Under the pieces are notes generated by a model, which was not told the DNA's origin, ran no database searches, and worked only from the letters and a program-made list of their open reading frames with translations. This document shows positions 14,435 through 51,157 of a DNA stretch of 64,000 nucleotides, in pieces; the first letter of the stretch is position 1, and each line of letters starts with the position of its first letter. A program made the translations under genes and the position numbers. The DNA comes from Salegentibacter echinorum (GTDB lineage: Bacteria > Bacteroidota > Bacteroidia > Flavobacteriales > Flavobacteriaceae), in NCBI RefSeq assembly GCF_900129445.1, contig NZ_FQVT01000003.1:186001-250000 (forward strand). Direction: 5' to 3'.

Positions 14435-15445
14435 ATGTTAGACAATAAATCAATATTAATAACCGGTGGTACCGGTTCATTAGGGAAAGCTTTAACCGCT
14501 CATATTTTTAAAACCTACCCTAATATAAAGAAGCTGGTTATTTTTTCCCGCGATGAACAAAAGCAGTTTGAAATGGCGCAGGAGTACCCTAGGTCTGAAT
14601 TTCCACAACTTCGGTTTTTTATTGGGGATGTGAGAGATGAGGCCAGGGTAAAGAGAGCCTTAAAAGGAATAGACTATGTGATTCACGCGGCAGCAATGAA
14701 ACATGTACCCATTGCAGAATACAATCCCATGGAATGTGTAAAGACCAATATTATGGGAGCCGAAAATATAATAAACGCCTGTTTGGAGGCACAGGTGGAA
14801 AGAGTGGTAGCTCTCTCTACCGATAAGGCTGCTGCACCTATAAATCTTTATGGCGCTACTAAATTGGCTTCAGATAAATTATTTGTGGCCGCCAATAATA
14901 TTACGGGTTGGAACCCTATTAAATTTTCTGTAGTGCGTTATGGAAATGTTATGGGTTCTAATGGCTCTGTAATACCTTTTTTCTTAAAAAAGAGAAAAGA
15001 AGGGGTGCTACCCATTACAGACCCTACCATGACCAGATTTAATATTTCCCTGCAGGGAGGTGTAGATATGGTAATACACGCTTTGGAACACGCCTGGGGT
15101 GGGGAAATTTTTGTCCCTAAAATTCCTTCTTACAAAATCACCGATATAGCAGAAGCTATTGGTCCCAACTGCGAAAAACCAGTGGTAGGAATTCGTCCTG
15201 GCGAAAAAATTCACGAAGAAATGATCACCGATTCAGATTCGTATTATACTTATGACCTTGGTAAATATTACACTATTCTTCCGGCAACCCATAAATGGAA
15301 ATTAGAAGAGTTTGTGGAGAAATTTGATGCGAAAAAAGTAACTCCCGGTTTTGAGTATAATTCAGGAGAAAATGAAGAATGGGAAACAGTTGAAAATCTA
15401 AGGAATTTAATTAAAGAACATGTAGATTCAACCTTTGAAGCATAA
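14435..15445 (+). CDS. pseB: UDP-N-acetylglucosamine 4,6-dehydratase (inverting), PseB
   Basis: First enzyme of pseudaminic acid synthesis. It converts UDP-GlcNAc to UDP-2-acetamido-2,6-dideoxy-L-arabino-hexos-4-ulose. The 336-residue SDR shows ITGGTGSLGKAL near residue 9, HAAAMKHVP, STDKAAAPINLYGATK with the Y-x3-K pair, and the ending of the PseB/FlaA1 group (IRPGEKIHEEMI). The tyrosine in NLYGATK separates it from the retaining LegB-type enzyme at 39733, which has methionine there. It lies 19 bases after ugd. pseC follows after a 270-base gap with repeats. Confidence 0.96.
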   Translation: MLDNKSILITGGTGSLGKALTAHIFKTYPNIKKLVIFSRDEQKQFEMAQEYPRSEFPQLRFFIGDVRDEARVKRALKGIDYVIHAAAMKHVPIAEYNPMECVKTNIMGAENIINACLEAQVERVVALSTDKAAAPINLYGATKLASDKLFVAANNITGWNPIKFSVVRYGNVMGSNGSVIPFFLKKRKEGVLPITDPTMTRFNISLQGGVDMVIHALEHAWGGEIFVPKIPSYKITDIAEAIGPNCEKPVVGIRPGEKIHEEMITDSDSYYTYDLGKYYTILPATHKWKLEEFVEKFDAKKVTPGFEYNSGENEEWETVENLRNLIKEHVDSTFEA

Positions 15446-15715: not shown

Positions 15716-16990
15716 ATGAGCCAAAAAAATAAAGATAAAATATCCGATTCCAGTTCTAGTTCATCATTGACGGGTAACCATGCTGCAATACCTTATGGAC
15801 GTCAAAATATTACGGAGGAAGATATAGCGGCAGTGGTAAGCACCTTAAAATCTGATTACCTTACACAGGGGCCGAAGATTGGAAGTTTTGAAAATGCTTT
15901 TGCTGAGTATGTGGGCAGTGAATATGCCGTGGCGGTTTCCAATGGTACTGCGGCCTTACATCTCTGTGCGCTTGCTTTAAATGTTAAGCCCGGGGATAAG
16001 GTAATAACCACACCAATTACTTTTGCGGCTTCGGCCAATTGTGTGCGCTATGCCGGCGGAGAAGTGGTTTTTGCCGATATTGATCCTGAAACTTATTTAC
16101 TAGATATTAATAAAGTTCAGGAATTATTGGAAGCTGCGCCAAAAGGAACTTATAAAGGAGTGATTCCCGTTGACTTTGCCGGAAGGGCCGTAGATATGGA
16201 AGCTTTTAGAAAACTTGCCGATGAGTATGGGCTGTGGATTATTGAAGATTCCTGCCATGCGCCCGGTGGTTCTTTTAAAGATCAATCTGGTGAAAAACAA
16301 ACCTGCGGAAATGGTAATTTTGCCGATCTGGCTATTTTCTCGTTCCATCCCGTTAAACACATCGCCAGCGGAGAAGGCGGAATGATCACCACAAATAATA
16401 AGGAACTTTACGAAAAACTCCTTCAATTAAGGACCCATGGAATCGTAAAAGATGATGAAAAATATAAGAATTCCATAGCTTTTGCAACAGGTAGTGACGA
16501 ATCCCGGATCCCGAATCCCGAATTAACGGGTTATCCAAACTGGTACATGGAAATGCAGGAACTCGGCTATAATTACAGGTTAACCGACTTCCAGGCTGCA
16601 CTGGGGGAAAGCCAGTTAAAAAGAGCTGATGATGGCTTGAATCGGCGAAGGGAAATTGCCAAAGTATATTTTGAAGCTTTTAAAGGGAACGATTTTGTAA
16701 AAGGCCAATCTGGAGTGATTGAAGGTCACGCTTATCATTTATATATCCTCGAAGTAGAAGACCGGTTAGAACTATATAATTATTTACGGGAACATAAAAT
16801 CTTTGCCCAAATCCATTATATTCCATGTCATCTAATGCCTTATTACCGGGATTTGGGTTGGAACGAAGGCGATATGCCAAATGCAGAAAAATATTACAGG
16901 CACTGTATAAGTTTGCCTATGTTTCCCACACTTTCCAATAAAGAACAGGAATTTGTGATAAATAGAATAAATGCTTTTTATAATGAGTAA
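15716..16990 (+). CDS. pseC: UDP-4-amino-4,6-dideoxy-N-acetyl-beta-L-altrosamine transaminase, PseC
   Basis: Second enzyme of the pseudaminic acid pathway, a PLP-dependent aminotransferase of the DegT/DnrJ/EryC1/StrS family using glutamate as donor. At 424 residues it has a serine-rich N-terminal extension (SDSSSSSSL) before IPYGRQNITEEDIAAV. The cofactor region is VSNGTAALHLCALAL, D and H in EDSCHAPGG, and the PLP lysine in FSFHPVKHIASGEGG. Its stop overlaps pseF by 8 bases, so the two are translationally coupled. Confidence 0.95.
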   Translation: MSQKNKDKISDSSSSSSLTGNHAAIPYGRQNITEEDIAAVVSTLKSDYLTQGPKIGSFENAFAEYVGSEYAVAVSNGTAALHLCALALNVKPGDKVITTPITFAASANCVRYAGGEVVFADIDPETYLLDINKVQELLEAAPKGTYKGVIPVDFAGRAVDMEAFRKLADEYGLWIIEDSCHAPGGSFKDQSGEKQTCGNGNFADLAIFSFHPVKHIASGEGGMITTNNKELYEKLLQLRTHGIVKDDEKYKNSIAFATGSDESRIPNPELTGYPNWYMEMQELGYNYRLTDFQAALGESQLKRADDGLNRRREIAKVYFEAFKGNDFVKGQSGVIEGHAYHLYILEVEDRLELYNYLREHKIFAQIHYIPCHLMPYYRDLGWNEGDMPNAEKYYRHCISLPMFPTLSNKEQEFVINRINAFYNE

Positions 16991-17678
16991 AAATTTATGT
17001 ATTATCCCGGCTCGTGGCGGAAGCAAACGTATTCCGAGAAAAAATATAAAGAATTTTCTAGGGAAACCTATTATTGCTTATTCTATAACGGCAGCCTTAG
17101 AAAGTAAGCTTTTTGATGAAGTAATGGTTTCTACTGATGATGAAGAAATTGCGGAAGTAGCTAAAAAATATGGAGCAAAAGTGCCCTTTATGCGTTCTCA
17201 AAAGAATGCAGATGATTTTGCAACAACTGTAGATGTCTTACTTGAGGTTACCCAAAAATATGAAGCCTCAGATCAAACTTTTGATAATATTTGCTGCATA
17301 TATCCAACAGCCCCTTTTACAACTTCAGTTAAATTAAAAGAGGCTTTTCATAAATTACAACAGGAAGATTTAGATTCTGTTTTTCCCATTATGGCTTATA
17401 GCTACCCTATTCAAAGATCTCTGAGATTAAAAGATGATAAAATAACATTTTTCTATCCTGAATTTGAAGAAGCCAGGTCTCAGGATTTAGAGGATGCTTT
17501 TCACGATGCGGGACAGTTTTATTTCTTTAAAACAAAGTCTTTATTAGAAAACAAAACTATTTTCTCAGTTAAAACCGGAGGAATTGTAATAAATGAATTG
17601 GAAGCCCAGGATATAGATAGTAAAACCGATTGGAAAATTGCAGAAATTAAATATGAATTCATACAAAGTTCTAAATAA
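16983..17678 (+). CDS. pseF: Pseudaminic acid cytidylyltransferase, PseF
   Basis: Activates pseudaminic acid with CTP to CMP-pseudaminate, the last step before transfer. About 231 residues; the N-terminal CMP-NeuAc-synthetase motif is IPARGGSKRIPRKNIK and the metal/CTP region is VSTDDEEIAEVAKKYGA. The C-terminal third (DAGQFYFFK) fits PseF. ATG 16983, overlapping the pseC stop, gives the family N-terminus MSKNLCIIPARGG; an upstream ATG at 16971 is less likely. It overlaps the next GNAT gene by 26 bases. Confidence 0.94.
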   Translation: MSKNLCIIPARGGSKRIPRKNIKNFLGKPIIAYSITAALESKLFDEVMVSTDDEEIAEVAKKYGAKVPFMRSQKNADDFATTVDVLLEVTQKYEASDQTFDNICCIYPTAPFTTSVKLKEAFHKLQQEDLDSVFPIMAYSYPIQRSLRLKDDKITFFYPEFEEARSQDLEDAFHDAGQFYFFKTKSLLENKTIFSVKTGGIVINELEAQDIDSKTDWKIAEIKYEFIQSSK

Positions 17679-18216
17679 ACAGTCTTTTTCTTCGGGCGAA
17701 TACAAAATCGTACCAATTCGTATGGAAGATCGCTATGCAATTATGCAATGGCGTAATGAGCAAATGTATCATTTGAGACAAAATGAAGTCCTTACGAAAG
17801 AAAAACAGGATTATTACTTCGATACGGTGGTTTCTAAATTATTCGAACAGGAAAAACCAGATCAAATTTTGTTTTCTTATTTAAAGGAGGAAGAATGTAT
17901 TGGTTATGGAGGTTTAGTGCATATAAACTGGATTGATAGAAATGCGGAAATTTCATTTATAATGAATACTGAATTAGAGGAAAGACATTTTGAATTTCAC
18001 TGGAATAATTTTTTTAAGCTACTGGAAGAAGTTGCCTGGAAAGCGTTAAATCTCCATAAAATCTTTACGTATGCATTTGATTTAAGACCAAAATTATATA
18101 CTATATTCGAAAAACAAGGCTTCCATAAAGAAGCGAGATTAAGAGAGCATATTCTCTCTCACGAAAAGGCTTATCTAGATGTTGTAATTCATTCAAAAAT
18201 AAATAAAAAATTATGA
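17653..18216 (+). CDS. GNAT-family N-acetyltransferase in the Pse operon
   Basis: A 187-residue GNAT with YKIVPIRMEDRYAIMQWRN at the N-terminus and a C-terminal half (LHKIFTYAFDLRPKLYTIFEKQGFHKEARLREHI) typical of RimJ/RimL-like acetyltransferases. It is one of three consecutive GNATs between pseF and pseI. One should acetylate the 4-amino group of UDP-4-amino-4,6-dideoxy-AltNAc (PseH role); the others may modify the nonulosonate further. It starts at ATG 17653 inside pseF and overlaps the next gene by four bases (ATGA). Confidence 0.82.
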   Translation: MNSYKVLNKQSFSSGEYKIVPIRMEDRYAIMQWRNEQMYHLRQNEVLTKEKQDYYFDTVVSKLFEQEKPDQILFSYLKEEECIGYGGLVHINWIDRNAEISFIMNTELEERHFEFHWNNFFKLLEEVAWKALNLHKIFTYAFDLRPKLYTIFEKQGFHKEARLREHILSHEKAYLDVVIHSKINKKL

Positions 18217-18800
18217 AAATTTTTAAAGGAGAGCGAATCTATTTACGGAAAATAGAACTTAGTGATATTACTGATTCAGTTATGGAATGGTTTAGGGATG
18301 AGGAACTTATGGAATTTTATACAACGTCGAAAAAAACCATAACCAAGGATTCTTTATTAAAATCGATAGAGGAAGGTGAAAGAAAAGGTAATCTAATAAC
18401 TTATGGCATATTTACAAGAGAATTAAATGCTTTGATAGGAACCATCAAATTAGGACCTATAAATTTCGCCCATAGAATATCAGATTTAGTAATTCTTATT
18501 GGGGATCGTAATTACCTGGGAAAAGGCTTAGCAGTAGAAGCGATTGAGGTAGGCAATCAATTAGCTTTCGAAGAATTTGATATTCGTAAATTGTATGGCG
18601 GAATGTATGAATCAAACATCGCTTCAATTAAAGCATATACTAGGGCTGGCTGGTTAATAGAAGGGAGACTTAAAGGTTTTTATCATAAGGATGGTGCAAA
18701 TGAAGATAGAATCCTGGTAAGTTACTTCAATCCCAAATACTTTTCGAAAGATGAAATTGATGAAACCGCTTCTTTACAAAGTAGGTATTTTCAATTGTGA
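18213..18800 (+). CDS. GNAT-family N-acetyltransferase (RimJ/RimL-like) in the Pse operon
   Basis: A 195-residue GNAT: GERIYLRKIELSDI at the N-terminus, the acetyl-CoA region DRNYLGKGLAVEAI, and the C-terminal NIASIKAYTRAGWLIEGRLK. It is the strongest match of the three to a complete RimJ/RimL fold. ATGA overlap with the previous gene and GTGA overlap with the next show tight coupling. Its substrate is probably a Pse pathway intermediate. Assignment as PseH is possible but cannot be separated from its two neighbours by eye. Confidence 0.82.
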   Translation: MKIFKGERIYLRKIELSDITDSVMEWFRDEELMEFYTTSKKTITKDSLLKSIEEGERKGNLITYGIFTRELNALIGTIKLGPINFAHRISDLVILIGDRNYLGKGLAVEAIEVGNQLAFEEFDIRKLYGGMYESNIASIKAYTRAGWLIEGRLKGFYHKDGANEDRILVSYFNPKYFSKDEIDETASLQSRYFQL

Positions 18801-19306
18801 TTAAAAATCACATAAATTTCTCAGCGTATATGAAACACGCTAAATTAAATAATTTAAAATTACGTTATGCAGAAAAGGCAGATATTGCATCAACACTTAC
18901 TTGGGCCAATAATCCTCAAGTAAGAGCTTTCGCATATAACCAAAATAAAATCTCTCATGAGGTACATACAGATTGGTTTTATTCAAAACTGGAATCCATA
19001 GATTGTGAATATTATATTCTTGAAGTTCAAGATAAACCAGCTGGTTCTATTAGGTTCGATATTGAAAAAAATGGAAGTGCAAAGATCAATTATTTAATAG
19101 ATCCCAATTATACTGGGAAAGGATTAGGTACCTATATACTAGATAATGGTATAAAGTTCCTTCATAAAAATAGACCTTCCATTAAAAAGGTTTATGGATA
19201 TGTCTTAAAGGAAAATATTGCGTCTATAAAAATTTTTAATAAATTATCATATAATAAAGTTTCTGACAACGGTTCAGAATTAAAGTACGAAAAACCAATA
19301 AAATGA
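18797..19306 (+). CDS. GNAT resembling the C-terminal acetyltransferase domain of PseG fusions
   Basis: A 169-residue GNAT whose segment LRYAEKADIASTLTWANN, followed by HTDWFYSKL and a C-terminal NIASIKIFNKLSY, recalls the acetyltransferase domain that in many bacteria is fused behind the UDP-sugar hydrolase PseG. Here the hydrolase domain is absent. The GTG at 18797 overlaps the previous stop (GTGA); an internal ATG at 18830 is an alternative start giving MKHAKLNNLKLRY. It is the best PseH candidate of the three by position, directly upstream of pseI (4-base overlap). Confidence 0.75.
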   Translation: MIKNHINFSAYMKHAKLNNLKLRYAEKADIASTLTWANNPQVRAFAYNQNKISHEVHTDWFYSKLESIDCEYYILEVQDKPAGSIRFDIEKNGSAKINYLIDPNYTGKGLGTYILDNGIKFLHKNRPSIKKVYGYVLKENIASIKIFNKLSYNKVSDNGSELKYEKPIK

Positions 19307-20346
19307 AGTTAGGAAATAATGAAATAGGAGGAAATTCTTCAGTTTTTATAATTGCAGAACTTTCAGCCAATCATAACGGTAGTCTGGAAACGGCTTTAGA
19401 AACCATTAGAGCTGCAAAAAGAGCAGGTGCCGATGCTATTAAATTACAAACCTATACCGCAGATACCATGACCTTAGATGTAAAATCTTCAGATTTTATG
19501 TTGAGTCAGGGAACTATTTGGGATGGTGCATATTTACATGACCTATACAAAAAAGCTTATACGCCCTGGGAGTGGCACGAACAACTTTTTAAAGTTGCAG
19601 AAGAAGAGGGCTTAATTTGTTTTTCTTCACCATTTGATGCTACCGCAGTTGAGTTTTTAGAAAAGCTTGGCGCTCCTGCTTATAAAATTGCTTCATTTGA
19701 AATCACCGATATTCCATTAATAGAACTTGTAGCTTCAAAAGGGAAACCGGTAATTATTTCTACCGGCATAGCAGGGAAGGAAGATATTGAACTGGCGTTG
19801 GAAGCTTGTAAAAGGAGTGGGAATAATGATATTGCACTATTAAAATGCACCTCTTCCTACCCCGCGCCAATTGAGGAGGCAAATATGATTATGGTTAAAG
19901 ATTTAGCCGAAAGATATAACGTGATAACTGGTTTATCAGACCATACTATGGGTAGTACCGTACCTGTGGTCGCAACCTGCTTTGGCGCCAGGATCATAGA
20001 AAAACACTTTATTTTAGATAAAAGTATTGGCGGGCCAGATGCTTCATTTTCTATGGATGAAAAAGAATTTACCGAAATGGTGAAAGCAGTACGGGAAGCA
20101 GAAAAGGCTATTGGAAAAGTAGATTATACGCTAACAGAAAAACAAAAGAAAGGAAGGGATTTTAGCCGTTCATTGTATGTCGCAGAAGACATTAAAGCGG
20201 GAGAAGAATTAACCAGTGAAAATATAAGAAGTGTTAGGCCTGGGTTTGGGATGCATCCTAAGTACTATAATAATGTGCTTGGCACCAAGGCTGTGAAAGA
20301 TCTAAAAAAAGGAGAAAGATTAGCAGAAGAAAAATATGCTAAGTAA
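19303..20346 (+). CDS. pseI: Pseudaminic acid synthase, PseI
   Basis: Condenses 2,4-diacetamido-2,4,6-trideoxy-L-altrose with phosphoenolpyruvate to give pseudaminic acid. The 347-residue protein has the NeuB-family TIM barrel (FIIAELSANHNGSLETAL at the start, IKLQTYTADTMTL, the EITDIPLI and GLSDHTMGS segments, EKHFILDKSIGGPDASFS) and a C-terminal antifreeze-like SAF domain (SLYVAEDIKAGEEL to FGMHPKY). The FSMDEKEF and TYTADTMTLD features separate PseI from the LegI/NeuB enzyme at 42672. It is the last gene of the tightly overlapping Pse operon; its substrate requires a PseG-type hydrolase not found here. Confidence 0.95.
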   Translation: MKLGNNEIGGNSSVFIIAELSANHNGSLETALETIRAAKRAGADAIKLQTYTADTMTLDVKSSDFMLSQGTIWDGAYLHDLYKKAYTPWEWHEQLFKVAEEEGLICFSSPFDATAVEFLEKLGAPAYKIASFEITDIPLIELVASKGKPVIISTGIAGKEDIELALEACKRSGNNDIALLKCTSSYPAPIEEANMIMVKDLAERYNVITGLSDHTMGSTVPVVATCFGARIIEKHFILDKSIGGPDASFSMDEKEFTEMVKAVREAEKAIGKVDYTLTEKQKKGRDFSRSLYVAEDIKAGEELTSENIRSVRPGFGMHPKYYNNVLGTKAVKDLKKGERLAEEKYAK

Positions 20347-20879: not shown

Positions 20880-21899
20880 ATGAAAATTTTAAAGGAAAAA
20901 AGGTTATTTATACTATCTAATAATATTCATTACATAAATGCTAAAAATTATATTAGAACACATAAAGAAGGAGAAAATCATCTAATATTCCTTAATAAAT
21001 TTTCAAAGGGACATCAAGAATTTATCGATGAAATTAAAAAAGATAGAGATTTTAAGAGTATTAAAATTATAGCTAATAATCAAAATCAAAAATTCCCCAA
21101 AGGCTTCTTAAAGACAATTTCCTTTATTAAGAATGTAAGAGGTTTAAAAGGTCATTTTGGTAATAATATTGAAAAAATTTTTATTTCTAATTATTTATCA
21201 TGGCAGCAACATTATATTCTCAAACAATTTCATACGAATCAAATTATTTTAATTAACGACGGGACTGCAATTTTTAAAACAATTGAGCTTAGGGAAACTT
21301 CGAAGATTATTAATTTTTCTCATATTAATTTCCTGATAAAATCTTTTTTAGGTACTACGAAGATTAACAATTTACACTTTTACAGTCCTATAAAAGTTCC
21401 TGTAGCGCAATATGATTCTATCGAAATATTTAATTTTGAAGCATCAAAAAGTTCGCAGGTAAATTCAAAAAAAGTATATTTTATTGGGTCTCCACTTGTT
21501 GAGCTAAACTACTTAAAACTTAATCATCATTTATCATATTTAACGACTATAAAGAATATTTTTCCCGATGCCCAGATTACTTACTTTGCTCATAGAGGTG
21601 AAAAAGATAGGTTTTTAGAAAAATACGATTATTTTGGTAAAGTTGTTAAGGACACTATTTCGTTTGAAGAGAGATTGCGACAGGAAAAGGTATTACCGGG
21701 TTATATACTTTCTTATGCTTCTTCAATTTTAATAAATTTACCCCAGGTTTATCCACAAATTAATTTTTCTTATTTCCCTTTAGAAGAGGACGGTATACCT
21801 GATAATTCATCTTTTAAAAGTATTTATCCTCCTTTAATAGATAATTTTGAGCGTATGAAAAGCTCCAATTTTGATATTTTACAAGTAAAAAAAACTTAA
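20880..21899 (+). CDS. Putative nonulosonic-acid transferase (GT52/polysialyltransferase-like), Pse-associated
   Basis: A 339-residue protein I do not recognise with certainty. It is clearly paralogous to the gene at 50144: shared YI(N/K)-motifs near the start, an acid-glycine pair (N126-D127-G128 in LINDGTAIF), VYFIGSPLVEL at 199-209, H238-R239 (FAHRGEKDRF), SFEERLRQE at 261-269, and an S281-S282 dyad in LSYASS. An acid-acid-glycine, a His motif and a Ser-Ser dyad in this order recall GT52/GT38-type sialyltransferases, although HR replaces the usual HP. It follows the Pse operon and precedes a flippase, so CMP-Pse is the natural donor. Markedly AT-rich. Function inferred. Confidence 0.6.
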   Translation: MKILKEKRLFILSNNIHYINAKNYIRTHKEGENHLIFLNKFSKGHQEFIDEIKKDRDFKSIKIIANNQNQKFPKGFLKTISFIKNVRGLKGHFGNNIEKIFISNYLSWQQHYILKQFHTNQIILINDGTAIFKTIELRETSKIINFSHINFLIKSFLGTTKINNLHFYSPIKVPVAQYDSIEIFNFEASKSSQVNSKKVYFIGSPLVELNYLKLNHHLSYLTTIKNIFPDAQITYFAHRGEKDRFLEKYDYFGKVVKDTISFEERLRQEKVLPGYILSYASSILINLPQVYPQINFSYFPLEEDGIPDNSSFKSIYPPLIDNFERMKSSNFDILQVKKT

Positions 21900-23291: not shown

Positions 23292-23854
23292 TATTTAAGC
23301 CCTTAATTGTATTAATTATTTGCTGTTGTTTTTTTCCATCGAAAATTTTAAAATTAGCGATAAAAACCTTAGGGAGTAGCTATGTATGGTTAAACTTCAA
23401 TTTAATCTGCTGGGAGAAATAAGTCCGGGGTCTTCTTTAGCCGCAATTATTCGTGAATCAATATAAAGAACAATGTTTCGGCGGGTAAGTCCGGCTTAGT
23501 TGCACCCATTCTTGGATATCTAAAATGTTGGTAACTTAGTCGTTGTGTAGCATTGAGATTAATCCCGTGAATATAGCGGTTTAGAATGGAGTTTTGTTTA
23601 TCGTCGTATTCTTTTCGTTCCTTTCTCTATAGTATTACAGACATAGTTGAGGGCAAGGCAAAAAAATAAACCAATCTTCATTTTCTTCTAAAAACCGCAA
23701 AGTGTATGTTCTTTTTTGCTATTGTCCAAACGATTTAGAGCAGCAAATAAGTTAAGTGTATGAGATATACCTGCGACTTCTTTATTTTTTAACATTTGTA
23801 TATTATGAAAAGTTATAAAAGGAACATGTCGTTTTTTAACTATCATAAAAAATG
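23292..23854. other. Gene-free region with possible decayed coding sequence
   Basis: 642 bases separate wzx from cysQ. No intact frame is present. On the minus strand roughly 23620-23790 reads for about 55 codons with one stop and a plausible residue composition, but no family is recognisable, so I treat it as degenerate DNA. A predicted promoter for cysQ lies at its downstream end. Confidence 0.4.
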
Positions 23855-23862
23855 TAAATTTG
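23855..23862 (+). promoter_or_regulatory. Predicted -7 box of the cysQ-cysN operon
   Basis: TAAATTTG is an exact TAnnTTTG match 72 bases before the GTG start of cysQ. The -33 region is T-rich (GTTTTTTAAC) without a clear TTG. Confidence 0.45.
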
Positions 23863-23933
23863 CTGTTTAGATGGTTCCAATCTTATTTATAAGCTAGTGG
23901 TATGTTCAAATCTGCATATTACTAATTGGAAGA

Positions 23934-24797
23934 GTGCTTAATGGAAAAACCAAAGTTTTGAATTTAAGCGATAGAAATTTATTTAAAAGATTTATATTGA
24001 GAAAAGAACTTGAAATTGCGATTAAGGCGGCAATTGCCGGGGGAGAAGAAATTTTACAGGTTTATAATTCTGAAGAATTTCACGTAGAAATTAAAAATGA
24101 CTCTTCTCCTTTAACGATTGCAGATACAAAGGCGAATAGTAAAATAATGGAATTTTTAGCTCCAACAGCTATTAAAATAATTAGCGAAGAGAACAGGCAA
24201 ATTGCATACACACATCGAAAGAATTGGGATGCCTGCTGGATAGTAGATCCTTTAGATGGCACCAAAGAATTTATTAAAAAAAATGGGGAATTTACGGTTA
24301 ATATCGCGTTAATTAAAAATGGCGCACCGTTTTTGGGGGTGATTTATGTACCTGCTACGGGCGTGTTGTACTATGCCGATGTAGAGAAAGCTAAAGCATA
24401 TAAAACCAGTATTACAAATATTGAAAATTTCAATTCAGCCATAAATAATAGTGAAGTGATTAGACCGGGGGCGGGAGGTAAGAACTTAAGAGTAGTTGGC
24501 AGTAAGTCTCATATGAATGATGATACTTTAAATTATATAAAATCTTTAAAAGAATTTCATAGTAAAACTGTTGAAATTGTTCCTGTGGGAAGCTCGCTGA
24601 AGTTTTGTCTGGTTGCAGAAGGTTTAGCAGATGTTTATCCAAGATTTGCCCCTACTATGGAGTGGGACACCGCAGCGGGTCACGCAATTTGTAATGCAGT
24701 TGGTCTAAATGTTGTAGATAAAGAAACAGGGAAGGAAATGCGGTACAATCGGGAAAACTTATTAAATAATAGTTTTTTAGTTTCAGCAATTGGCTAA
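23934..24797 (+). CDS. cysQ: 3'(2'),5'-bisphosphate nucleotidase, CysQ
   Basis: Hydrolyses 3'-phosphoadenosine 5'-phosphate, the inhibitory by-product of sulfotransferases, to AMP. About 287 residues with the Mg-binding inositol-monophosphatase-fold motifs: SSPLTIADTKAN, E-E in IISEENRQ, WIVDPLDGTKEF and EWDTAAGHAI. The start is uncertain. The outermost is GTG 23934, but TTG 23997 gives MRKELEIAIKAAIAGG, closer to family N-termini. It heads a coupled operon with a DUF2061 gene, cysC, cysD and cysN, which indicates PAPS supply and recycling for polysaccharide sulfation. Confidence 0.92.
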   Translation: MLNGKTKVLNLSDRNLFKRFILRKELEIAIKAAIAGGEEILQVYNSEEFHVEIKNDSSPLTIADTKANSKIMEFLAPTAIKIISEENRQIAYTHRKNWDACWIVDPLDGTKEFIKKNGEFTVNIALIKNGAPFLGVIYVPATGVLYYADVEKAKAYKTSITNIENFNSAINNSEVIRPGAGGKNLRVVGSKSHMNDDTLNYIKSLKEFHSKTVEIVPVGSSLKFCLVAEGLADVYPRFAPTMEWDTAAGHAICNAVGLNVVDKETGKEMRYNRENLLNNSFLVSAIG

Positions 24798-26731: not shown

Positions 26732-26776
26732 AATGCGAATTTCTACGAATTGGGTGCGAATTTAACGCGAATGGGG
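26731..26776. repeat. CGAAT array upstream of GxxExxY gene 2
   Basis: CGAAT occurs at 26736, 26746, 26757 and 26768, at 10-11 base spacing, starting right after the cysD stop. The last copy contains the ATG of the GxxExxY gene (CGCGAATGGGG), the same context as the last unit before GxxExxY gene 1 (AACGAATGGGG). Confidence 0.65.
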
Positions 26777-27169: not shown

Positions 27170-27186
27170 TTCGGTTTCGAAATTCG
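27159..27186. repeat. ATTCG array downstream of GxxExxY gene 2
   Basis: ATTCG or TTTCG occurs at 27159, 27169, 27175 and 27182, overlapping the end of the gene. This is the reverse complement of the CGAAT core upstream, so the gene is bracketed by inverted arrays as in copy 1. Confidence 0.55.
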
Positions 27187-27203
27187 CGACAATTAGGGAG
27201 AAG

Positions 27204-39732: not shown

Positions 39733-40920
39733 ATGGATATATTAAAACTTATTGGAAGGGACAGAAATTTATTTTTCGAAGATATTCAAAATCGGGAAAA
39801 AGAGCTGGAAGAAATTATCTCGAGTTCTTCTTTCCTGGTTTTGGGCGGAGCTGGCTCAATAGGGCAGGCGGTAACCAAAGAAATCTTTAAAAGAAACCCC
39901 AAAAAGCTCCATGTAGTAGATATTAGTGAAAATAATATGGTGGAATTGGTTCGGGATCTTCGCAGTTCTTTTGGTTATATAGCGGGAGATTTTAAAACCT
40001 TTGCTTTAGATATAGGCTCTTTGGAATATGATGCTTTTATAAATCATGACGGGGAGTATGAATACGTTTTAAATCTCTCTGCTTTAAAACATGTGCGAAG
40101 TGAAAAAGACCCATTTACATTAATGAGGATGATTGATGTAAATATTTTTAATACCGATAAAACTATTCATCAGGCTATAGACAAGAATACCAAAAAATAT
40201 TTTTGTGTCTCTACAGATAAGGCGGCGAACCCGGTAAATATGATGGGAGCTTCCAAAAAAATTATGGAAATGTTTTTAATGCAAAGGAGTAGGAACATTA
40301 CTATTTCTACAGCTCGTTTTGCAAATGTTGCTTTTTCCGATGGCTCACTACTTCATGGTTTTAATCAAAGAATCCAGAAAAGACAGCCACTTGTAGCGCC
40401 AAATGATGTAAAACGCTATTTTGTGACCCCACAGGAAAGCGGTGAACTTTGTCTTATGTCCTGTATTTTTGGAGAAAACAGGGATGTGTTTTTTCCTAAG
40501 CTAAGCGAAAAACTACATCTTATCTCTTTTGCCGATGTAGCGGTGAAATACTTAAAAGAGCTTGGTTACACCCCCTATCTTTGTGAAACAGAAAACGAAG
40601 CCCGGGATTTGGTACATAGTTTACCAGAACAAGGAAAATGGCCCTGTTTGTTTACCGGGAGCGATACTACAGGAGAGAAAGATTTCGAAGAATTCTTTAC
40701 CGAAGATGAGGTTTTGGATTTAGAACAATTTAATAATCTGGGGATTATTAAAAATGAACTCGATATAGAAGAAGATAAATTAACATTTTTTAAAAAGGAA
40801 ATTGCAGAAATGCGAAAAAATAAAGTCTGGAACAAGCAGGAAATTGTAGCTTTATTCTTCAAAATGATTCCGGACTTTGGGCATAAAGAAACCGGTAAAT
40901 ATTTAGATTCTAAAATGTAA
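39733..40920 (+). CDS. legB: NDP-N-acetylglucosamine 4,6-dehydratase (retaining), LegB
   Basis: First dedicated step of the legionaminic acid branch; forms the 4-keto-6-deoxy-GlcNAc nucleotide with retained C5 configuration. 395 residues with LVLGGAGSIGQAV near 36, LSALKHVRSEKDP and STDKAANPVNMMGASKKIME. The methionine in MMGASK replaces the SDR tyrosine, as in the PglF/LegB group and unlike the pseB product. The C-terminal half (HLISFADVAVKYLKELGY, then an acidic segment) is as in soluble LegB proteins. It starts a run of nine closely spaced genes; the stop and next start share a base (TAATG). Confidence 0.92.
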   Translation: MDILKLIGRDRNLFFEDIQNREKELEEIISSSSFLVLGGAGSIGQAVTKEIFKRNPKKLHVVDISENNMVELVRDLRSSFGYIAGDFKTFALDIGSLEYDAFINHDGEYEYVLNLSALKHVRSEKDPFTLMRMIDVNIFNTDKTIHQAIDKNTKKYFCVSTDKAANPVNMMGASKKIMEMFLMQRSRNITISTARFANVAFSDGSLLHGFNQRIQKRQPLVAPNDVKRYFVTPQESGELCLMSCIFGENRDVFFPKLSEKLHLISFADVAVKYLKELGYTPYLCETENEARDLVHSLPEQGKWPCLFTGSDTTGEKDFEEFFTEDEVLDLEQFNNLGIIKNELDIEEDKLTFFKKEIAEMRKNKVWNKQEIVALFFKMIPDFGHKETGKYLDSKM

Positions 40921-42062
40921 TGAGAGAATTTAATGAGACCATATCATTTATTCGGGACTATTATAATACTAAAGAATTTATACCCTTACATGAACCAAAG
41001 TTTGGGGGAAATGAAAAAAAGTATGTATTAGACACCATAGCATCTACTTTTGTTTCTTCTGTTGGTGCTTATGTTGATAAATTTGAGGAAAGGATGCAGC
41101 GAATTAGCCAAACAAAAAATGCGGTAGCGGTGGTTAATGGAACTGCTGCAATTCAGGTTGCTCTGCGTTTGGTGGGGGTGCAGAAAGGAGATGAAGTTTT
41201 AACCCAGGCTCTTACATTTGTGGCGACGGCAAATGCTATTGCTTATAATAATGCAAAACCGGTTTTTCTGGATGTAGATTTAGACACGATGGGGTTATCT
41301 CCAATTGCGGTTCAAAATTTTCTGGAAGAATATGCAGAACTAAGAGAAGAAGGCTGCTATAATAAAAAAACCGGAAATAAAATAGCAGCGTGTTTGCCAA
41401 TGCACACATTCGGTTTTCCGGTACATCTTCACAAATTACTAAAAATTTGCAATGAGTGGAAAATCCCGGTTGTGGAAGACGCCGCAGAATCTCTGGGAAG
41501 TGAATATAATGGGAAACCTACCGGCGGTTATGGAGAGGTGGGCGCTTTCTCCTTTAACGGGAATAAAATAGTGACCAGTGGGGGCGGGGGAGCCCTGGTT
41601 ACAAATAATAACGCCTTGGGAAAAAAGGCTAAATTTTTAACTACCACGGCTAAAAAGCCCCACACGTATGAATATGTTCACGAGGAGTTGGGGTACAATT
41701 ATAGAATGCCAAACCTCAACGCCGCTTTAGCATGTGCACAATTAGAAAATCTAAATAATTTTATAGAAAATAAAAGGAATTTAGCTGAAAAGTATGCTCA
41801 TTTTTTTGAAAAACAACAATTGAAATTCCGTACGGAAACGCCTAATACAAAAGCTAATTACTGGTTGATGTGTGTGGAACTGAAAGACAGGCAGCAGCGG
41901 GATCTTTTTTTGGAGAAAACCAATGCTGTGAATGTAATGACACGACCTATATGGCAATTAATGTACAAATTACCCATGTATAAAGAATGTCTTCGCGATA
42001 AACAGGTAAATGCAGAGTTTCTGGAAGACCGAATTGTAAATATTCCCAGTAGTGTTAAATAA
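40920..42062 (+). CDS. legC: LegC-type PLP aminotransferase
   Basis: Aminates the 4-keto group made by LegB to the bacillosamine-type amino sugar. 380 residues, DegT/DnrJ/EryC1/StrS fold: PLHEPKFGGNEKKYVLD at the start, VVNGTAAIQVALR, EDAAESLGSEYNGK and the PLP lysine in SFNGNKIVTSGGGG. The start overlaps the legB stop by one base. The NGNKIVTSGGGG form is typical of LegC as against PseC (HPVKH) and VioA (HATKL) in the same locus. Confidence 0.92.
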   Translation: MREFNETISFIRDYYNTKEFIPLHEPKFGGNEKKYVLDTIASTFVSSVGAYVDKFEERMQRISQTKNAVAVVNGTAAIQVALRLVGVQKGDEVLTQALTFVATANAIAYNNAKPVFLDVDLDTMGLSPIAVQNFLEEYAELREEGCYNKKTGNKIAACLPMHTFGFPVHLHKLLKICNEWKIPVVEDAAESLGSEYNGKPTGGYGEVGAFSFNGNKIVTSGGGGALVTNNNALGKKAKFLTTTAKKPHTYEYVHEELGYNYRMPNLNAALACAQLENLNNFIENKRNLAEKYAHFFEKQQLKFRTETPNTKANYWLMCVELKDRQQRDLFLEKTNAVNVMTRPIWQLMYKLPMYKECLRDKQVNAEFLEDRIVNIPSSVK

Positions 42063-42675
42063 AGAAGCTATATTAATAGGATATTCAGGGCACGGTGCGG
42101 TAGTAGCAGAAGCGGCAGAATTGGCTCGTATAAAAATCTATGGATATACGGAAACCGGGAAAGTCACCTCCAATCCTTTTAATCTTGAGTATTTGGGCTT
42201 TGAAAAGGACCCGCAGTTTAAGGGCTGGGCTACAGATAAAAGTTATATTTTAGGAATAGGGGACAATCATCTTCGGGAAAAGGCCGGGAATTTAATTATT
42301 TCAAAAGAAAGAGAACTTTTAAATGTTATTCACCCCTGCGCCTCGGTGACTAAAGAGCTTAGCCTGGGAACAGGAAATTTTATAGCCAGAAATGCTGCTG
42401 TAAATCCCCGGGTTAGCATAGGAGATTTTTGCATTATTAATACCGGTGCCATCGTAGAACACGACTGTGCTGTTGATGATGCAGTACATATAGCCCCCGG
42501 TGCTGTACTAACCGGAAATGTGCGGGTGGGACACTGTACATTTATTGGTGCCAATGCGGTAATAAAACAGGGCGTTAAAATTGGAAAAAACGTTATAATT
42601 GGAGCTGGTTCGGTGGTGATAAAAGATGTGGGTGATAATCAAAAAGTAATAGGAAATCCAGGTAGGCTAATATGA
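42052..42675 (+). CDS. NeuD/PglD/LegH-type sugar N-acetyltransferase
   Basis: A 207-residue protein with an N-terminal Rossmann-like sugar-nucleotide domain (AILIGYSGHGAVVAEAAEL) and a C-terminal left-handed beta helix of hexapeptide repeats (VSIGDFCIINTGAIVEHDC, VRVGHCTFIGANAVIKQG). The catalytic-type histidine lies in EHDC. It would use acetyl-CoA to N-acetylate the LegC product. A GTG start at 42052 overlaps the legC end by 11 bases, and its stop overlaps the synthase gene (ATGA). Confidence 0.9.
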   Translation: MLNKEAILIGYSGHGAVVAEAAELARIKIYGYTETGKVTSNPFNLEYLGFEKDPQFKGWATDKSYILGIGDNHLREKAGNLIISKERELLNVIHPCASVTKELSLGTGNFIARNAAVNPRVSIGDFCIINTGAIVEHDCAVDDAVHIAPGAVLTGNVRVGHCTFIGANAVIKQGVKIGKNVIIGAGSVVIKDVGDNQKVIGNPGRLI

Positions 42676-43685
42676 AAAATAAGGTAATTATAATAGCAGA
42701 AGCTGGGGTAAACCATAATGGGGAGGTCCAGCAGGCTAAAAAACTAATAGCGGCGGCGGCAAATGCCGGGGTAGATTATGTGAAATTCCAAACATTTAAA
42801 GCTTCTAAATTGGTAACTAAATCTGCAGAACGTGCAAATTATCAAAATGATAACACGGGAGATGGAGATTCTCAGTACGAAATGCTTAAGAAATTAGAAC
42901 TTTCAGAAGATGTTCACAAAGAATTAATGGAATATTGCGCTGCAAGGGGCGTAAAGTTTTTATCTACCGGGTTCGATTTAGATAGCCTGGAATTTCTGAA
43001 TAATATAGGAATCAATCTTTTTAAAATTCCATCGGGAGAAATTACAAACCTACCCTATCTTCGTAAAATAGCTGGTTTTGGAAAGCAGGTAGTAATGTCC
43101 ACGGGAATGGCCAACATGCAGGAAGTTAAAGATGCCTTTAATGTACTAATTACAGAGGGACTTTCACGCCAGGATATTAGTATTGTACACTGCAATACTG
43201 AATATCCAACCCCTATGAAAGACGTTAATTTAAAAGCCATGCTTCATATTGGGGACGAGCTAAACACAAAAATTGGCTATTCAGACCATACTTTGGGAAT
43301 AGAGGTTCCCATAGCGGCAGTAGCTTTGGGGGCAAAAGTGATAGAAAAACATTTTACTTTAGACAGGGATTTGCCGGGCCCAGATCACAGGGCGTCGTTA
43401 GTACCCGAAGAATTAAAGGCAATGGTCACTTCTATTCGTAATATAGAAATGGCGATTTCGGGCTCTGGGGTAAAAGAACCTTCGCCTTCAGAATTAAAAA
43501 ATAAACCTATAGCGCGAAAAAGTATAATTGCTTCTCAAAATATTAAAAAAGGTGATGTATTTTCAGAAATAAATCTCACTATAAAACGCCCGGGAACGGG
43601 AATTAATCCAATGAGATGGAACGATATTCTGGGACAGCGAGCGATAAAAGATTTTAAGGAAGACGATTTAATAGAATTAATTTGA
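42672..43685 (+). CDS. legI: N,N'-diacetyllegionaminate (NeuB-family) synthase, LegI
   Basis: Condenses 2,4-diacetamido-2,4,6-trideoxymannose with phosphoenolpyruvate to legionaminic acid. 337 residues: IIIAEAGVNHNGEVQQAKK, VKFQTFKASKLVT, FLSTGFDLDSL, KIPSGEITNLPYL, GYSDHTLGIEVP, EKHFTLDRDLPGPDH and a C-terminal SAF domain (KSIIASQNIKKGDVF, RPGTGINPMRW). The sequence belongs to the NeuB/LegI branch, distinct from PseI at 19303. Sialic rather than legionaminic acid is excluded mainly by the dedicated legB/legC genes alongside. Confidence 0.92.
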   Translation: MKNKVIIIAEAGVNHNGEVQQAKKLIAAAANAGVDYVKFQTFKASKLVTKSAERANYQNDNTGDGDSQYEMLKKLELSEDVHKELMEYCAARGVKFLSTGFDLDSLEFLNNIGINLFKIPSGEITNLPYLRKIAGFGKQVVMSTGMANMQEVKDAFNVLITEGLSRQDISIVHCNTEYPTPMKDVNLKAMLHIGDELNTKIGYSDHTLGIEVPIAAVALGAKVIEKHFTLDRDLPGPDHRASLVPEELKAMVTSIRNIEMAISGSGVKEPSPSELKNKPIARKSIIASQNIKKGDVFSEINLTIKRPGTGINPMRWNDILGQRAIKDFKEDDLIELI

Positions 43686-44839
43686 AAAAAATAGCGATTG
43701 TAACAGGAACCCGGGCAGAGTTTGGGTTATTGAGTCCATTAATGGATAAAATTCAAGAAGATAAGGAAATGCAATTGCAACTTATTGTAACTGCGATGCA
43801 TCTGTCTCCTGAATTTGGATATACCGTTGATGAAATTGAAGAGAAAGGTTATAAAATAGATAGTAAAGTAGAATGTTTGCTTTCTTCAGATACAGCAGTA
43901 GGAGTAACAAAATCTGTTGGCTTGGCGACAATTGGATTTGCTGATGCTTTCACTAATTTATCTCCAGATGTAGTTGTTATATTAGGAGATCGTACAGAAA
44001 TGCTGGCTGCGGCGACTTCAGCCCTGTTGGCCAATATTCCAATAGCCCATATTCATGGCGGTGAAACTACTGAAGGGGCTTATGATGAAAATATAAGGCA
44101 CGCAATTACAAAAATGAGTTATTTGCATTTTGCTTCTGCCAAAATATATAGGCAAAGAATAATCCAGCTGGGAGAACATCCCGACCGTGTTTTTAATGTA
44201 GGGGCTATTGGTCTGGATTCGATTAAAAATATGGATATTTTAAATAAAGAAGAGTTTGAACAATCCATTAACTTTAAACTTGGCAGGAAGAACATTCTAA
44301 TTACTTTTCATCCTGTTACTTTAGAAGATGACTCTGCCAAAGATCAGTTTAATGCTATTTTAGAAGCCTTAGATGCCCTGGAAGAAACACATTTTATTTT
44401 TACCCACGCCAATTCTGATAAGAGTGGACGGGTAATAAACCAGATGATAGAACAATTTGTAAACAAAAATCGAGAACGGGCGGTTGCTTTTAAATCTTTA
44501 GGTCACCTACGTTATCTCTCTGCTTTAGAGCATATTGATATGGTGTTGGGAAACTCATCGAGCGGAATTATAGAAGTACCCTATTTTAATATCCCGACGG
44601 TTAACATAGGGGACAGGCAAAAAGGACGTATCTTATCGGAAAGTATTATTCAGTCTGAAACAACAGTAGATGCTATCACTTTAGCTCTTCAAAAGGCGCT
44701 TGATATTGCTTTTAGAAAACGTATAGAAAATCAGGTACAACTCTATGGTTCTGGAAATACTGCAGAAAAAATAATGGATATCTTGAGAAATCAAAATATT
44801 AATAGCCTAAAGAAATCCTTTTACGATATTCAATTTTAA
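43682..44839 (+). CDS. legG: UDP/GDP-N,N'-diacetylbacillosamine 2-epimerase (hydrolysing), LegG/NeuC
   Basis: Hydrolyses the nucleotide and inverts C2 to give 2,4-diacetamido-2,4,6-trideoxymannose for LegI. 385 residues with the NeuC/WecB-like fold: IAIVTGTRAEFGLLSPLMD, VVILGDRTEMLAAA, IAHIHGGETTEGAYDE, ILITFHPVTLED and GNSSSGIIEVP. The TTG start at 43682 overlaps the legI stop by four bases. It cannot be assumed to replace PseG in the Pse pathway because PseG uses a different fold and does not epimerise C2. Confidence 0.93.
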   Translation: MKKIAIVTGTRAEFGLLSPLMDKIQEDKEMQLQLIVTAMHLSPEFGYTVDEIEEKGYKIDSKVECLLSSDTAVGVTKSVGLATIGFADAFTNLSPDVVVILGDRTEMLAAATSALLANIPIAHIHGGETTEGAYDENIRHAITKMSYLHFASAKIYRQRIIQLGEHPDRVFNVGAIGLDSIKNMDILNKEEFEQSINFKLGRKNILITFHPVTLEDDSAKDQFNAILEALDALEETHFIFTHANSDKSGRVINQMIEQFVNKNRERAVAFKSLGHLRYLSALEHIDMVLGNSSSGIIEVPYFNIPTVNIGDRQKGRILSESIIQSETTVDAITLALQKALDIAFRKRIENQVQLYGSGNTAEKIMDILRNQNINSLKKSFYDIQF

Positions 44840-45895: not shown

Positions 45896-46630
45896 ATGGA
45901 TAATATTTTAATAACTGTTTGCGCAAGAGGTGGGTCTAAAGGAATTCCCGATAAGAACATTAAAGAAATTGGGGGGGAACCATTAATATATTACACCTTG
46001 AGATTGGCTAAGGAATTTAAGAAAAAGCATCCCGGTACCTTGATTTATTTATCTACAGATTCCAATAAAATAAAGGAAGTTGTAGAAACCCTGAATATTA
46101 GCGGGGTAAATACCAACTATACACGGCCTCAAAAGCTTGCCGACGATTCTTCTGGAAAATTAGAGGTAATTAATGACCTTAAAAATTATGTAGAAGCTGA
46201 AAAAAAAATACAGTTTGATTACATAATGGATATGGATGTTACTTCTCCTTTACGTACACTCCGGGATTTGGAAATAGCCTTTGAAAAATTGATCAAAAGT
46301 AATGAGGCTTTAAACATCTTTTCGGTTAGTCCTGCGGCGAGAAATCCTTATTTTAATATGGTAGAAGTCAATGACCAGGGTTTTGCTGTATTGTGTAAAC
46401 AAGGAGATTTTTTAACCCGGCAATCTGCTCCTGCCGTGTACGATATGAATGCTTCCTTTTATATTTTTAAAGAAAAATATTTCGAGAATGGAACTATAGC
46501 GGGCTTAATGGAAAAAGCTTTAATTTATGAAGTACCGCATGTTTGTTTTGATTTGGATCATCCAATCGATTTCGATTTTATGACCTTTATGATAGAAAAT
46601 AATAAACTTAACTTCGAATTCCTAAAATGA
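45896..46630 (+). CDS. legF: CMP-legionaminate synthetase, LegF (NeuA family)
   Basis: Activates legionaminic acid with CTP. 244 residues, CMP-NeuAc synthetase fold: ITVCARGGSKGIPDKNIKEIGGE at the N-terminus, STDSNKIKEVV, the metal aspartates in MDMDVTSPLRTL, and the C-terminal DLDHPIDFDFMTFMIE. Longer than the PseF at 16983 and on a separate branch. The stop overlaps the next gene (ATGA), 12 bases after ptmE. Confidence 0.93.
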   Translation: MDNILITVCARGGSKGIPDKNIKEIGGEPLIYYTLRLAKEFKKKHPGTLIYLSTDSNKIKEVVETLNISGVNTNYTRPQKLADDSSGKLEVINDLKNYVEAEKKIQFDYIMDMDVTSPLRTLRDLEIAFEKLIKSNEALNIFSVSPAARNPYFNMVEVNDQGFAVLCKQGDFLTRQSAPAVYDMNASFYIFKEKYFENGTIAGLMEKALIYEVPHVCFDLDHPIDFDFMTFMIENNKLNFEFLK

Positions 46631-50143: not shown

Positions 50144-51157
50144 ATGCTACAACGACTTTTTATAATTAAAAATAATACTCACTATCTAAATGTCAAGAAT
50201 TATATCAAGACAAAGGAAAAGGCGCATAATCATATTTTTCTTACCGTGGGAAAATTTGAGGGCTACCTTGATTTTATCAACACAATAAAAGAAGATAAGG
50301 AACTTGAGTTATTGGGAATTATTTATACTCATAAATCGAGTCGTATTGTAGATTACTGGAATTTAATAACTAATATTATCTATATTAAAAAACAAGCTGT
50401 GAAGCAAAAGCATTTTGATGAGATAATATTTTCTAATTATAAGTACTTTCTTCAGCATTCAATAATTAATCATTATAGTACAGATAAAATTATATTATTA
50501 AGTGATGGTGCGGGTATTATAGTTATGGCAAATTATAGAAAGAAACACAAGTCTTTGCCATTTAAATCAATACCGTTTGGCAATAATACCTTTTTTAGAG
50601 AGCAGATTTTAAAAATTAAGCCTATAAAACATTTACATTTCTACACCCAGATTAATTTAGATATTGCTGAAGAAGATTCTCAGGAAATTTTTAAGTTTGA
50701 AGGTTCAAAGCATGATAAAGTAAATACTAAGAAAGTTTACTTTGTAGGCAGTCCCCTGGTAGAGTTGGGTTTTATTAGTTTAAATAAAAAGATTTCCTAT
50801 CTAAAGGAATTGATGGCCTATTATGAGAATTATGAGTTTTTTTATTTTCCGCATAGAAGAGAATCGGGTGAGAATTTAGAAAAATATAACTTTATGCAGG
50901 TAATTGCACAAAGTAACATCCCATTTGAAGAACGGATGAAGCAGGAGTCTGAATTACCCGGAACAATTATCTCTTTTGTATCTTCTATAGCAATAAATTT
51001 AGCTCCAATTTATTCTAAAATTAAATTTCAGTATTTTCCCCTTTCAAATTCAGATTTAAGCAGTAATAAGGAATTTCAGAAAAAATATAAGGTGATGTTG
51101 GCTGGTTATAAAAATTTAGAAACTCCAAATTTTTCTGAATTTCCCAGAAAAGATTAA
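50144..51157 (+). CDS. Putative nonulosonic-acid transferase (GT52/polysialyltransferase-like), Leg-associated
   Basis: 337 residues, paralogue of the gene at 20880. Shared blocks: LFIIKNNTHYLNVKNYI at the N-terminus, FSNY(K) before residue 100, D121-G122 in LLSDGAGII, HLHFYTQI, VYFVGSPLVEL at 198-208, H237-R238 (FPHRRES), PFEERMKQE and the S280-S281 dyad (SFVSS). The order of acid-glycine, His and Ser-Ser motifs suggests a GT-B sialyltransferase-like enzyme using CMP-legionaminate, made by the genes immediately upstream. I cannot place it in a named family with certainty; the pairing of each paralogue with a different nonulosonate operon is the main argument. Confidence 0.62.
   Translation: MLQRLFIIKNNTHYLNVKNYIKTKEKAHNHIFLTVGKFEGYLDFINTIKEDKELELLGIIYTHKSSRIVDYWNLITNIIYIKKQAVKQKHFDEIIFSNYKYFLQHSIINHYSTDKIILLSDGAGIIVMANYRKKHKSLPFKSIPFGNNTFFREQILKIKPIKHLHFYTQINLDIAEEDSQEIFKFEGSKHDKVNTKKVYFVGSPLVELGFISLNKKISYLKELMAYYENYEFFYFPHRRESGENLEKYNFMQVIAQSNIPFEERMKQESELPGTIISFVSSIAINLAPIYSKIKFQYFPLSNSDLSSNKEFQKKYKVMLAGYKNLETPNFSEFPRKD

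Follow-up and report, generated by a model that had tools for sequence, protein, structure and literature searches.

The window analysed here is a stretch of 64,000 nucleotides from Salegentibacter echinorum, and it carries two gene cassettes for nonulosonic acids (NulO), one for pseudaminic acid (Pse) and one for legionaminic acid (Leg), each with an unlabelled protein, which we call P0001 and P0002, respectively (Table 1). The Pse cassette reads pseB, pseC, pseF, three acetyltransferase-like genes, pseI, P0001 and a flippase-like gene, with 533 bases separating pseI from P0001 and 132 bases separating P0001 from the flippase-like gene. A preliminary description of this DNA had placed a 339-residue protein between pseI and a flippase; the forward reading frame does translate to that length without stops, pseI is identified by the PseI equivalog model, and the flippase is recognised from its position and sequence, being named by no NCBIfam model. 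The third acetyltransferase-like gene is nearest to PseH, at 56.8 bits under a cut-off of 93.1. A pseG gene for the UDP-sugar hydrolase could not be recognised in the Pse cluster (window 16971-19306), and in the whole genome no protein exceeded the PseG cut-off, the best match, on a different contig, reaching 20.7 against 153.55 bits; it is in this cluster that the three acetyltransferase-like genes lie between pseF and pseI. After the Pse cassette come genes resembling cysQ, cysC, cysD and cysN (window 23934-28460, by eye) and a sulfotransferase-like reading frame at 31632-32528, and this downstream region may point to sulfated glycans. A 24-residue match in the gap at 23292-23933 (E 0.002), one among all neighbourhood proteins tried, was taken as chance.

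Table 1. Genes of the two nonulosonic acid cassettes and motif positions within P0001 and P0002, in window coordinates
Feature	Position	Strand	Basis or remark
pseB	14435..15445	+	NCBIfam PseB, 513.7 bits, cut-off 407.75
pseC	15716..16990	+	NCBIfam PseC, 463 bits, cut-off 423.5
pseF, CMP-Pse synthetase	16971..17678	+	NCBIfam PseF, 315.2 bits, cut-off 205.7
Three GNAT (acetyltransferase-like) genes in tandem	17638..19306 (17638-18216, 18213-18800, 18797-19306)	+	
pseI	19303..20346	+	NCBIfam PseI equivalog, 515.3 bits, cut-off 340.25
P0001, Pse-side member, predicted GT-B NulO transferase, 339 aa	20880..21899	+	no stops in reading frame
P0001 N126-D127-G128	21255..21263	+	counterpart of D/E-D/E-G motif; D127 at place of catalytic base
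P0001 H238-R239	21591..21596	+	counterpart of HP motif, Pro replaced by Arg
P0001 E263	21666..21668	+	place of ribose-binding Glu (MhPST E323)
P0001 S281-S282	21720..21725	+	place of phosphate-binding S339-T340 of MhPST
Flippase-like membrane protein, 419 aa, adjoins P0001	22032..23291	+	position and sequence by eye
SDR dehydratase in legB position	39733..40920	+	Pfam Polysacc_synt_2; no NCBIfam match at E 1e-30
legC	40920..42062	+	NCBIfam LegC family, 535.9 bits, cut-off 420
legI, NeuB family synthase	42672..43685	+	over its cut-off
legG, NeuC-type epimerase	43682..44839	+	over its cut-off
legF, presumed CMP-Leg synthetase (cytidylyltransferase)	45896..46630	+	Pfam CTP_transf_3; no NCBIfam match at E 1e-30
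ABC exporter, directly upstream of P0002	48338..50125	+	Pfam ABC_tran and ABC_membrane
P0002, Leg-side paralogue, 337 aa	50144..51157	+	
P0002 S120-D121-G122	50501..50509	+	
P0002 H237-R238	50852..50857	+	

The Leg cassette begins with the SDR dehydratase, legC, a NeuD-type acetyltransferase, legI, the NeuC-type epimerase, a nucleotidyltransferase and the cytidylyltransferase, and continues with an oxidoreductase-like gene, a ptmA-like SDR gene, the ABC exporter, P0002, a GT2 gene and a GT4-like gene assigned by eye. We label this cassette Leg because its LegC-family aminotransferase, NeuB-type synthase and NeuC-type epimerase exceed their cut-offs; the names ptmE, ptmF, ptmA, legF, GT4 and 'flippase' are our own assumption from resemblance where no model named the gene. 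The ABC exporter would be the flippase for a lipid-linked glycan. The preliminary description had put a paralogue of P0001 right after the Leg genes; the paralogue does lie there, but the exporter gene intervenes between it and the ptmA-like gene.

P0001 and P0002 share 37% identity over 332 alignment columns (E 7e-73), a likeness which is therefore beyond chance, and they are the sole family matches in the whole source genome. Both genes are AT-rich, with a G+C content of 25.9% for P0001 and 28.2% for P0002 against 34.8% for the window. Neither protein carries a Pfam or NCBIfam label. For P0001, the only Pfam match was to DUF3953, below the cut-off (E 0.065; 13.4 against 22 bits), while NCBIfam returned nothing up to E 1 and a sequence search of the PDB nothing up to E 10, which bears out the earlier remark that this protein has no clear family label.

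An AlphaFold2 model of P0001 built with seven input sequences reached a pLDDT of 80.0 and a pTM of 0.79; an earlier model from two sequences (pLDDT 45.7) was set aside. When the model was compared with the PDB using Foldseek, ranks 1 and 2 were the GT38 polysialyltransferase of Mannheimia haemolytica (MhPST; 5wcn and 5wc6; E 1e-11 and 3.2e-11), with moderate TM scores by query of 0.59 and 0.62. Ranks 3 to 6 were the Neisseria GT52 LOS sialyltransferase NST (2yk4-2yk7; E 3.6e-9 to 2e-8), with low TM scores of 0.39-0.42 and an rmsd of 17-18 Å, possibly because the two domains meet at a different angle. Plant UDP-glycosyltransferases, MurG and UDP-sugar 2-epimerases followed below rank 6, and judged by name the best 50 matches are nearly all nucleotide-sugar glycosyltransferases, MurG or UDP-sugar 2-epimerases, proteins which we take to have the GT-B fold in common. 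The modelled fold of P0001 is thus GT-B, with two Rossmann-like domains and with sialyltransferases as the nearest solved folds. The comparison with GT52 and GT38 enzymes proposed at the outset accordingly came out as GT-B, the six best PDB matches being two GT38 and four GT52 chains. Searching the PDB by sequence with one family profile (A3) gave NST at a non-significant E of 1.1, with its DDG motif in register, and a second profile (A11) retrieved no sialyltransferase.

Relatives of the pair are sparse. Profile searches found a member in 4/395 genomes of the phylum, 6/397 of the family and 6/395 of the class, where each count includes the source genome and some genomes recur between searches, giving a total of 12 genomes and 13 members; among same-genus genomes there was no family match (0/14). 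A scan of named genomes added five loci, in Maribacter vaceletii, Maribacter sp. MMG018, Aquimarina algicola, Phaeobacter sp. B1627 and a metagenome-assembled genome (MAG) listed as 'bacterium'. The Maribacter vaceletii protein (L035) is identical to that of G759, which is one of the 12 genomes and belongs, like the window, to the Flavobacteriaceae, and was counted once, so that the set of 17 distinct members consists of the two of the window, those of 11 other genomes (G759 as L035) and those of four named contigs. The Phaeobacter member (L036 9212-11458) is the N-terminal part of a 748-residue reading frame with an extra C-terminal region, near a long NeuB-like reading frame, and only its first 420 residues were used. 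Plasmids and phages searched by tblastn gave no family match, and neither the viral contigs nor a first scan of genome contigs yielded a confirmed member; one match (L003, E 2e-4 over 120 residues) was dropped as chance, its reading frame being an aldehyde dehydrogenase by eye.

In a tree of the 17 members, P0001 and P0002 are sisters (support 100/99), and the protein of G669 (L029), flagged as a long branch, stands beside them (86/89); the deeper order is unsure, because 6 of the 14 inner branches are open. The Pfam model PF07388 (alpha-2,8-polysialyltransferase, POLYST), which we take to correspond to CAZy GT38, is passed at its cut-off of 23.3 bits by 6/17 members (L024, L025, L029, L030, L034 and L037), with L032 (17.8 bits) and P0002 (17.6 bits) as near-misses; P0001 gave no match and none is listed for the remaining members. 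Run across the source genome, this model touches P0002 only. For PF07922 (GT52, cut-off 26.1 bits), P0001 and P0002 gave no match up to E 10, and 2 of the 7 members scanned matched at E up to 1, the best at 21.3 bits. As the two proteins fall below the PF07388 cut-off, we place them in the superfamily by fold and transitive homology, outside PF07388, GT38 and GT52. In open-licence papers, searched by their titles and the first lines of their abstracts, we found no description of this subfamily and no activity for any member.

We then compared the residues expected at the active site. According to the sections of the report cited, the D/E-D/E-G and HP motifs of bacterial sialyltransferases were defined by Freiberger and colleagues, who showed their importance by mutation, with one HA exception to HP among the enzymes known (PMC2169525). 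In the part of the MhPST structure report used here, the base is E153 and the acid H291; E323 binds the ribose, S339 and T340 bind the phosphate, and the residues found at the cytosine are K289 and P292 (PMC5517516). With the residue register to MhPST set by motif order, spacing and profile alignment, D127, H238, E263 and S281/S282 of P0001 correspond to E153, H291, E323 and S339/T340. The ND-G, HR and SS motifs noticed earlier could thus be located at N126-D127-G128, H238-R239 and S281-S282. Among the 17 members, a carboxylate is kept at position 127 in 16, while G128, H238 and E263 are invariant (17/17 each), and Ser or Thr occupies position 281 in 17/17 and position 282 in 16/17. The full D/E-D/E-G motif is present in 13/17; P0001 (NDG) and P0002 (SDG) keep the base and have lost the first residue. 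The exception at the base position (DNG) is the MAG member, L037, which is also the named locus without a NeuB-like gene in 20 kb.

The second motif differs more. Only 2/17 members have Pro at position 239, where Arg is found in 14/17, including P0001 and P0002, and Lys in one, and no member (0/17) has the Lys or Arg of a (K/R)xHP motif at position 236, which is occupied by Phe (10), Val (4), Ile (2) or Leu (1). Two PF07388 proteins found with the Pfam model in 149 class genomes (E 1e-6) read KPHP and KLHP, and in a profile alignment with a canonical PF07388 protein of the class, K-P-H-P faces F-A-H-R, although this alignment is weak (E 0.001 in a single comparison, probability 22%). Since the base, Gly, His, Glu and Ser/Thr positions are kept, while the Lys is gone and so, in most members, is the Pro, the machinery for catalysis and phosphate binding seems preserved and the recognition of the nucleobase seems to have been rebuilt. 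Judged from the alignment, this rebuilding looks like the most unusual feature of the family. R239, which stands beside the His, could take over the base contacts. A Ser replaces the Lys in the Kdo transferase of E. coli K13, an enzyme that nonetheless binds CMP according to the cited part of PMC12887879.

Members of the family keep company with NulO synthesis genes. The preliminary description had asked whether homologues are frequent in genomes without nonulosonate synthesis; NeuB (PF03102) is present in 12/12 genomes with a member as against 85/149 class genomes, a set that includes the source genome and two others with members. The chance that all 11 other genomes would carry NeuB at the class rate is about 0.002 if they are independent draws, a rough figure, given some relatedness among the genomes and the assignment of two of them to the phylum only. 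Within 20 kb of a NeuB gene lie 11/13 members (at 0.8 to 18.2 kb) compared with 7/48 PF01943 flippases of the same genomes (Fisher p 4.5e-6). Since flippases mark polysaccharide clusters, this comparison corrects, though imperfectly, for simply being located in a cluster of this kind: the count of flippases near NeuB is too low, as PF01943 at E 1e-6 does not pick up the flippase-like neighbour of P0001, and some NeuB distances are lost to contig breaks. The members of G030 and G491 lie on contigs without NeuB in genomes that have it. A NeuB-like gene lies no more than 8 kb away at three of the four further named loci, L036, L038 and L039 (from Phaeobacter, Maribacter MMG018 and Aquimarina). 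The 20 kb MAG locus lacks a NeuB-like gene, and BLAST found no NulO gene there; its member (L037 9332-10423), with DNG for D/E-D/E-G, possibly has another function or is a relic. A PseF/LegF-like cytidylyltransferase was found by BLAST within 10 kb of 11/17 members, and a canonical PF07388 protein of the class (G892) likewise adjoins a LegF-like gene (by eye), about 4.4 kb from a NeuB. With NeuB in 85/149 class genomes and members in 6/395, most NulO makers must rely on other transferases. Because both the predicted fold (GT-B, GT38/GT52-like) and the co-occurrence with NeuB in 12/12 genomes agree with it, the earlier proposal of a family of nonulosonic acid transferases is well supported.

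Taken together, P0001 and P0002 are probably CMP-NulO transferases. Fold, motifs, homology and clustering with NulO synthesis genes were computed; the CMP donor nucleotide, inversion, a lipid-linked acceptor and the split between Pse and Leg we infer. As GT-B enzymes of the bacterial sialyltransferase superfamily, the two would move a nonulosonic acid from CMP onto a growing surface glycan. If they work as the GT38 enzyme does, D127 would take the proton off the acceptor hydroxyl, H238 and S281/S282 would steady the CMP phosphate, E263 would hold the ribose, and the anomeric centre would presumably be inverted. The most likely sugars are pseudaminic acid for P0001 and legionaminic acid for P0002; the acceptor would in each case be a lipid-linked glycan, which the exporter encoded beside the transferase would then carry across the membrane.

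How firmly the donors can be divided is a separate matter. The assignment of Pse to P0001 and of Leg to P0002 is taken from gene position, and we consider the reading of the two as CMP-NulO transferases with this split evenly balanced. The preliminary description had expected one member per CMP-nonulosonate pathway and hence a donor-specific pair. The positions of P0001 and P0002 fit this expectation, but a third NeuB locus of the source genome, on contig C21, includes a CMP-synthetase-like gene but lacks a family member, and G669 carries Pse and Leg sets with a single member, located between pseB and a ptmA-like gene, from which one unknown gene separates it. Members overall stand beside several kinds of NulO set. 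The rule of one member per pathway is thus broken at C21 and in G669, and we put donor choice forward as a hypothesis. At the C21 locus (L040 13628-17047), the CMP-synthetase-like protein (387 residues) is accompanied by a short NeuB-like protein and a 464-residue protein with a weak Pfam match to MGDG_synth (E 0.0015, below cut-off), possibly a transferase of another family. In G669, a 385-residue protein adjoining the member (L029 10562-11719) has no Pfam match, and its AEHPES and YSTS stretches recall sialyltransferase motifs; it showed no profile similarity to the P0001/P0002 family. The fullest version of our proposal is a natural sister pair in one genome, one enzyme for CMP-pseudaminic and the other for CMP-legionaminic acid, with the nucleotide pocket rebuilt as hydrophobic-x-His-Arg and not (K/R)xHP, and with each cassette bringing a sugar pathway and an exporter of its own; we advance it tentatively, at somewhat less than an even chance.

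The two enzymes may instead be the same CMP-NulO transferases differing in acceptor and not in donor, either of them taking CMP-Pse or CMP-Leg while the separate cassettes build different glycans. The single member between the Pse and Leg sets of G669 would fit such relaxed donor use, as would the members elsewhere, whose neighbouring NulO sets are Leg-like, have a fused CMP-synthetase or are of other kinds, so that no single sugar goes with the family, and four sialyltransferases, three of them bacterial, accept CMP-Leg5Ac7Ac according to the cited part of PMC6388019. The same source calls the Pse and Leg transferases of Tannerella forsythia stringent, however, and two diverged copies with one CMP-NulO synthetase beside each fit donor choice at least equally; we regard a difference in acceptor as rather unlikely, though the most serious of the alternatives. 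It is less probable that P0001 and P0002 are polymerases, making poly-Pse or poly-Leg in the way that GT38 polysialyltransferases make chains of sialic acid. A GT38 polysialyltransferase is the nearest fold, and 6/17 members match a Pfam model named for polysialyltransferase, but the next best folds are GT52 monosialyltransferases, and the GT2 and GT4-like (by eye) genes after P0002 suggest a mixed glycan, which makes a polymerase improbable.

A donor other than a CMP-sugar could be imagined, since the cytosine-reading Lys and Pro are missing (K/R at 236 in 0/17, Pro at 239 in 2/17), residues whose counterparts K289 and P292 line the pocket in MhPST by the published account cited (PMC5517516) and which both PF07388 proteins from the 149 class genomes retain as K-x-H-P. 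Against this stand the clustering with NeuB (11/13 versus 7/48) and with cytidylyltransferases, the retention of the His, Glu and Ser/Thr that hold phosphate and ribose, the Arg at 239 (14/17), which could supply base contacts, and the E. coli K13 Kdo transferase, reported in the cited part of PMC12887879 to bind CMP with Ser in place of Lys. We consider a non-CMP donor quite improbable, slightly more so than a polymerase. Finally, P0001 might stand in for the missing UDP-sugar hydrolase. PseG is a GT-B-like protein too, and the genome has no PseG over the cut-off (best 20.7 bits), with none seen in the Pse cluster. The sister P0002, however, sits in a Leg set with its own NeuC-type enzyme, G669 carries a PseG-like gene (a reading frame in L029, identified by reading) in addition to a member, the family profile does not resemble this PseG-like protein (probability 0.6%), and the best folds among the best 50 matches are sialyltransferases; a hydrolase role for P0001 is accordingly very improbable indeed.

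Among characterised systems, MhPST is the best PDB fold match and presents the same order of carboxylate-Gly, His, Glu and Ser/Thr. P0001 nevertheless has only 16-18% identity to it, lacks the Lys and Pro of KxHP, is shorter (339 residues versus 381-382 in the PDB entries) and, like P0002, has a Pse/Leg context, whereas MhPST uses CMP-Neu5Ac. NST, at fold ranks 3-6, is more distant, with 13-14% identity and a poor superposition with the P0001 model. The PF07388 proteins are linked to the family by the 6/17 members that pass the cut-off, including L029, next to the pair in the tree, yet they read KPHP or KLHP where 14/17 members have hydrophobic-x-H-R. GtfS (Pse) and TFUB4_00887 (Leg) of Tannerella forsythia are, in the cited parts of the literature, NulO transferases in Pse or Leg clusters of a Bacteroidota species with D/E-D/E-G and HP motifs, GtfS being described as of GT-B type (PMC6120980, PMC6388019). 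By description they stand apart: GtfS has 445 residues and both are said to bear a TagB domain (PMC7439481), and they are strain-specific in these accounts, whereas P0001 and P0002 are two paralogues in one genome. KpsS1 (GT118) of Acinetobacter baumannii is also a Pse transferase, and its description likewise sets it apart as a retaining enzyme related to WbbB and KpsC (PMC12887879, as far as cited), while the fold of P0001 is nearest to inverting GT38. We conclude that P0001 and P0002 represent a real, unlabelled and divergent GT38/GT52-like subfamily of NulO transferases, a well-supported assignment in which the kind of enzyme is known and the variant is new.

Much less is known of the transferases for Pse and Leg than of the genes making those sugars; those named in the literature surveyed are GtfS and TFUB4_00887 of T. 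forsythia (PMC6120980, PMC6388019), KpsS1 (PMC12887879) and Maf-type candidates. The interest of P0001 and P0002 lies in the natural pair and in the altered cytosine motif. Without the cytosine Lys and Pro, the two differ concretely from the mode of CMP recognition that the cited part of PMC5517516 gives for sialyltransferases, and a pair at 37% identity that combines one modelled fold with opposite donors, as expected from position, would allow the choice between Pse and Leg donors to be mapped by comparison.
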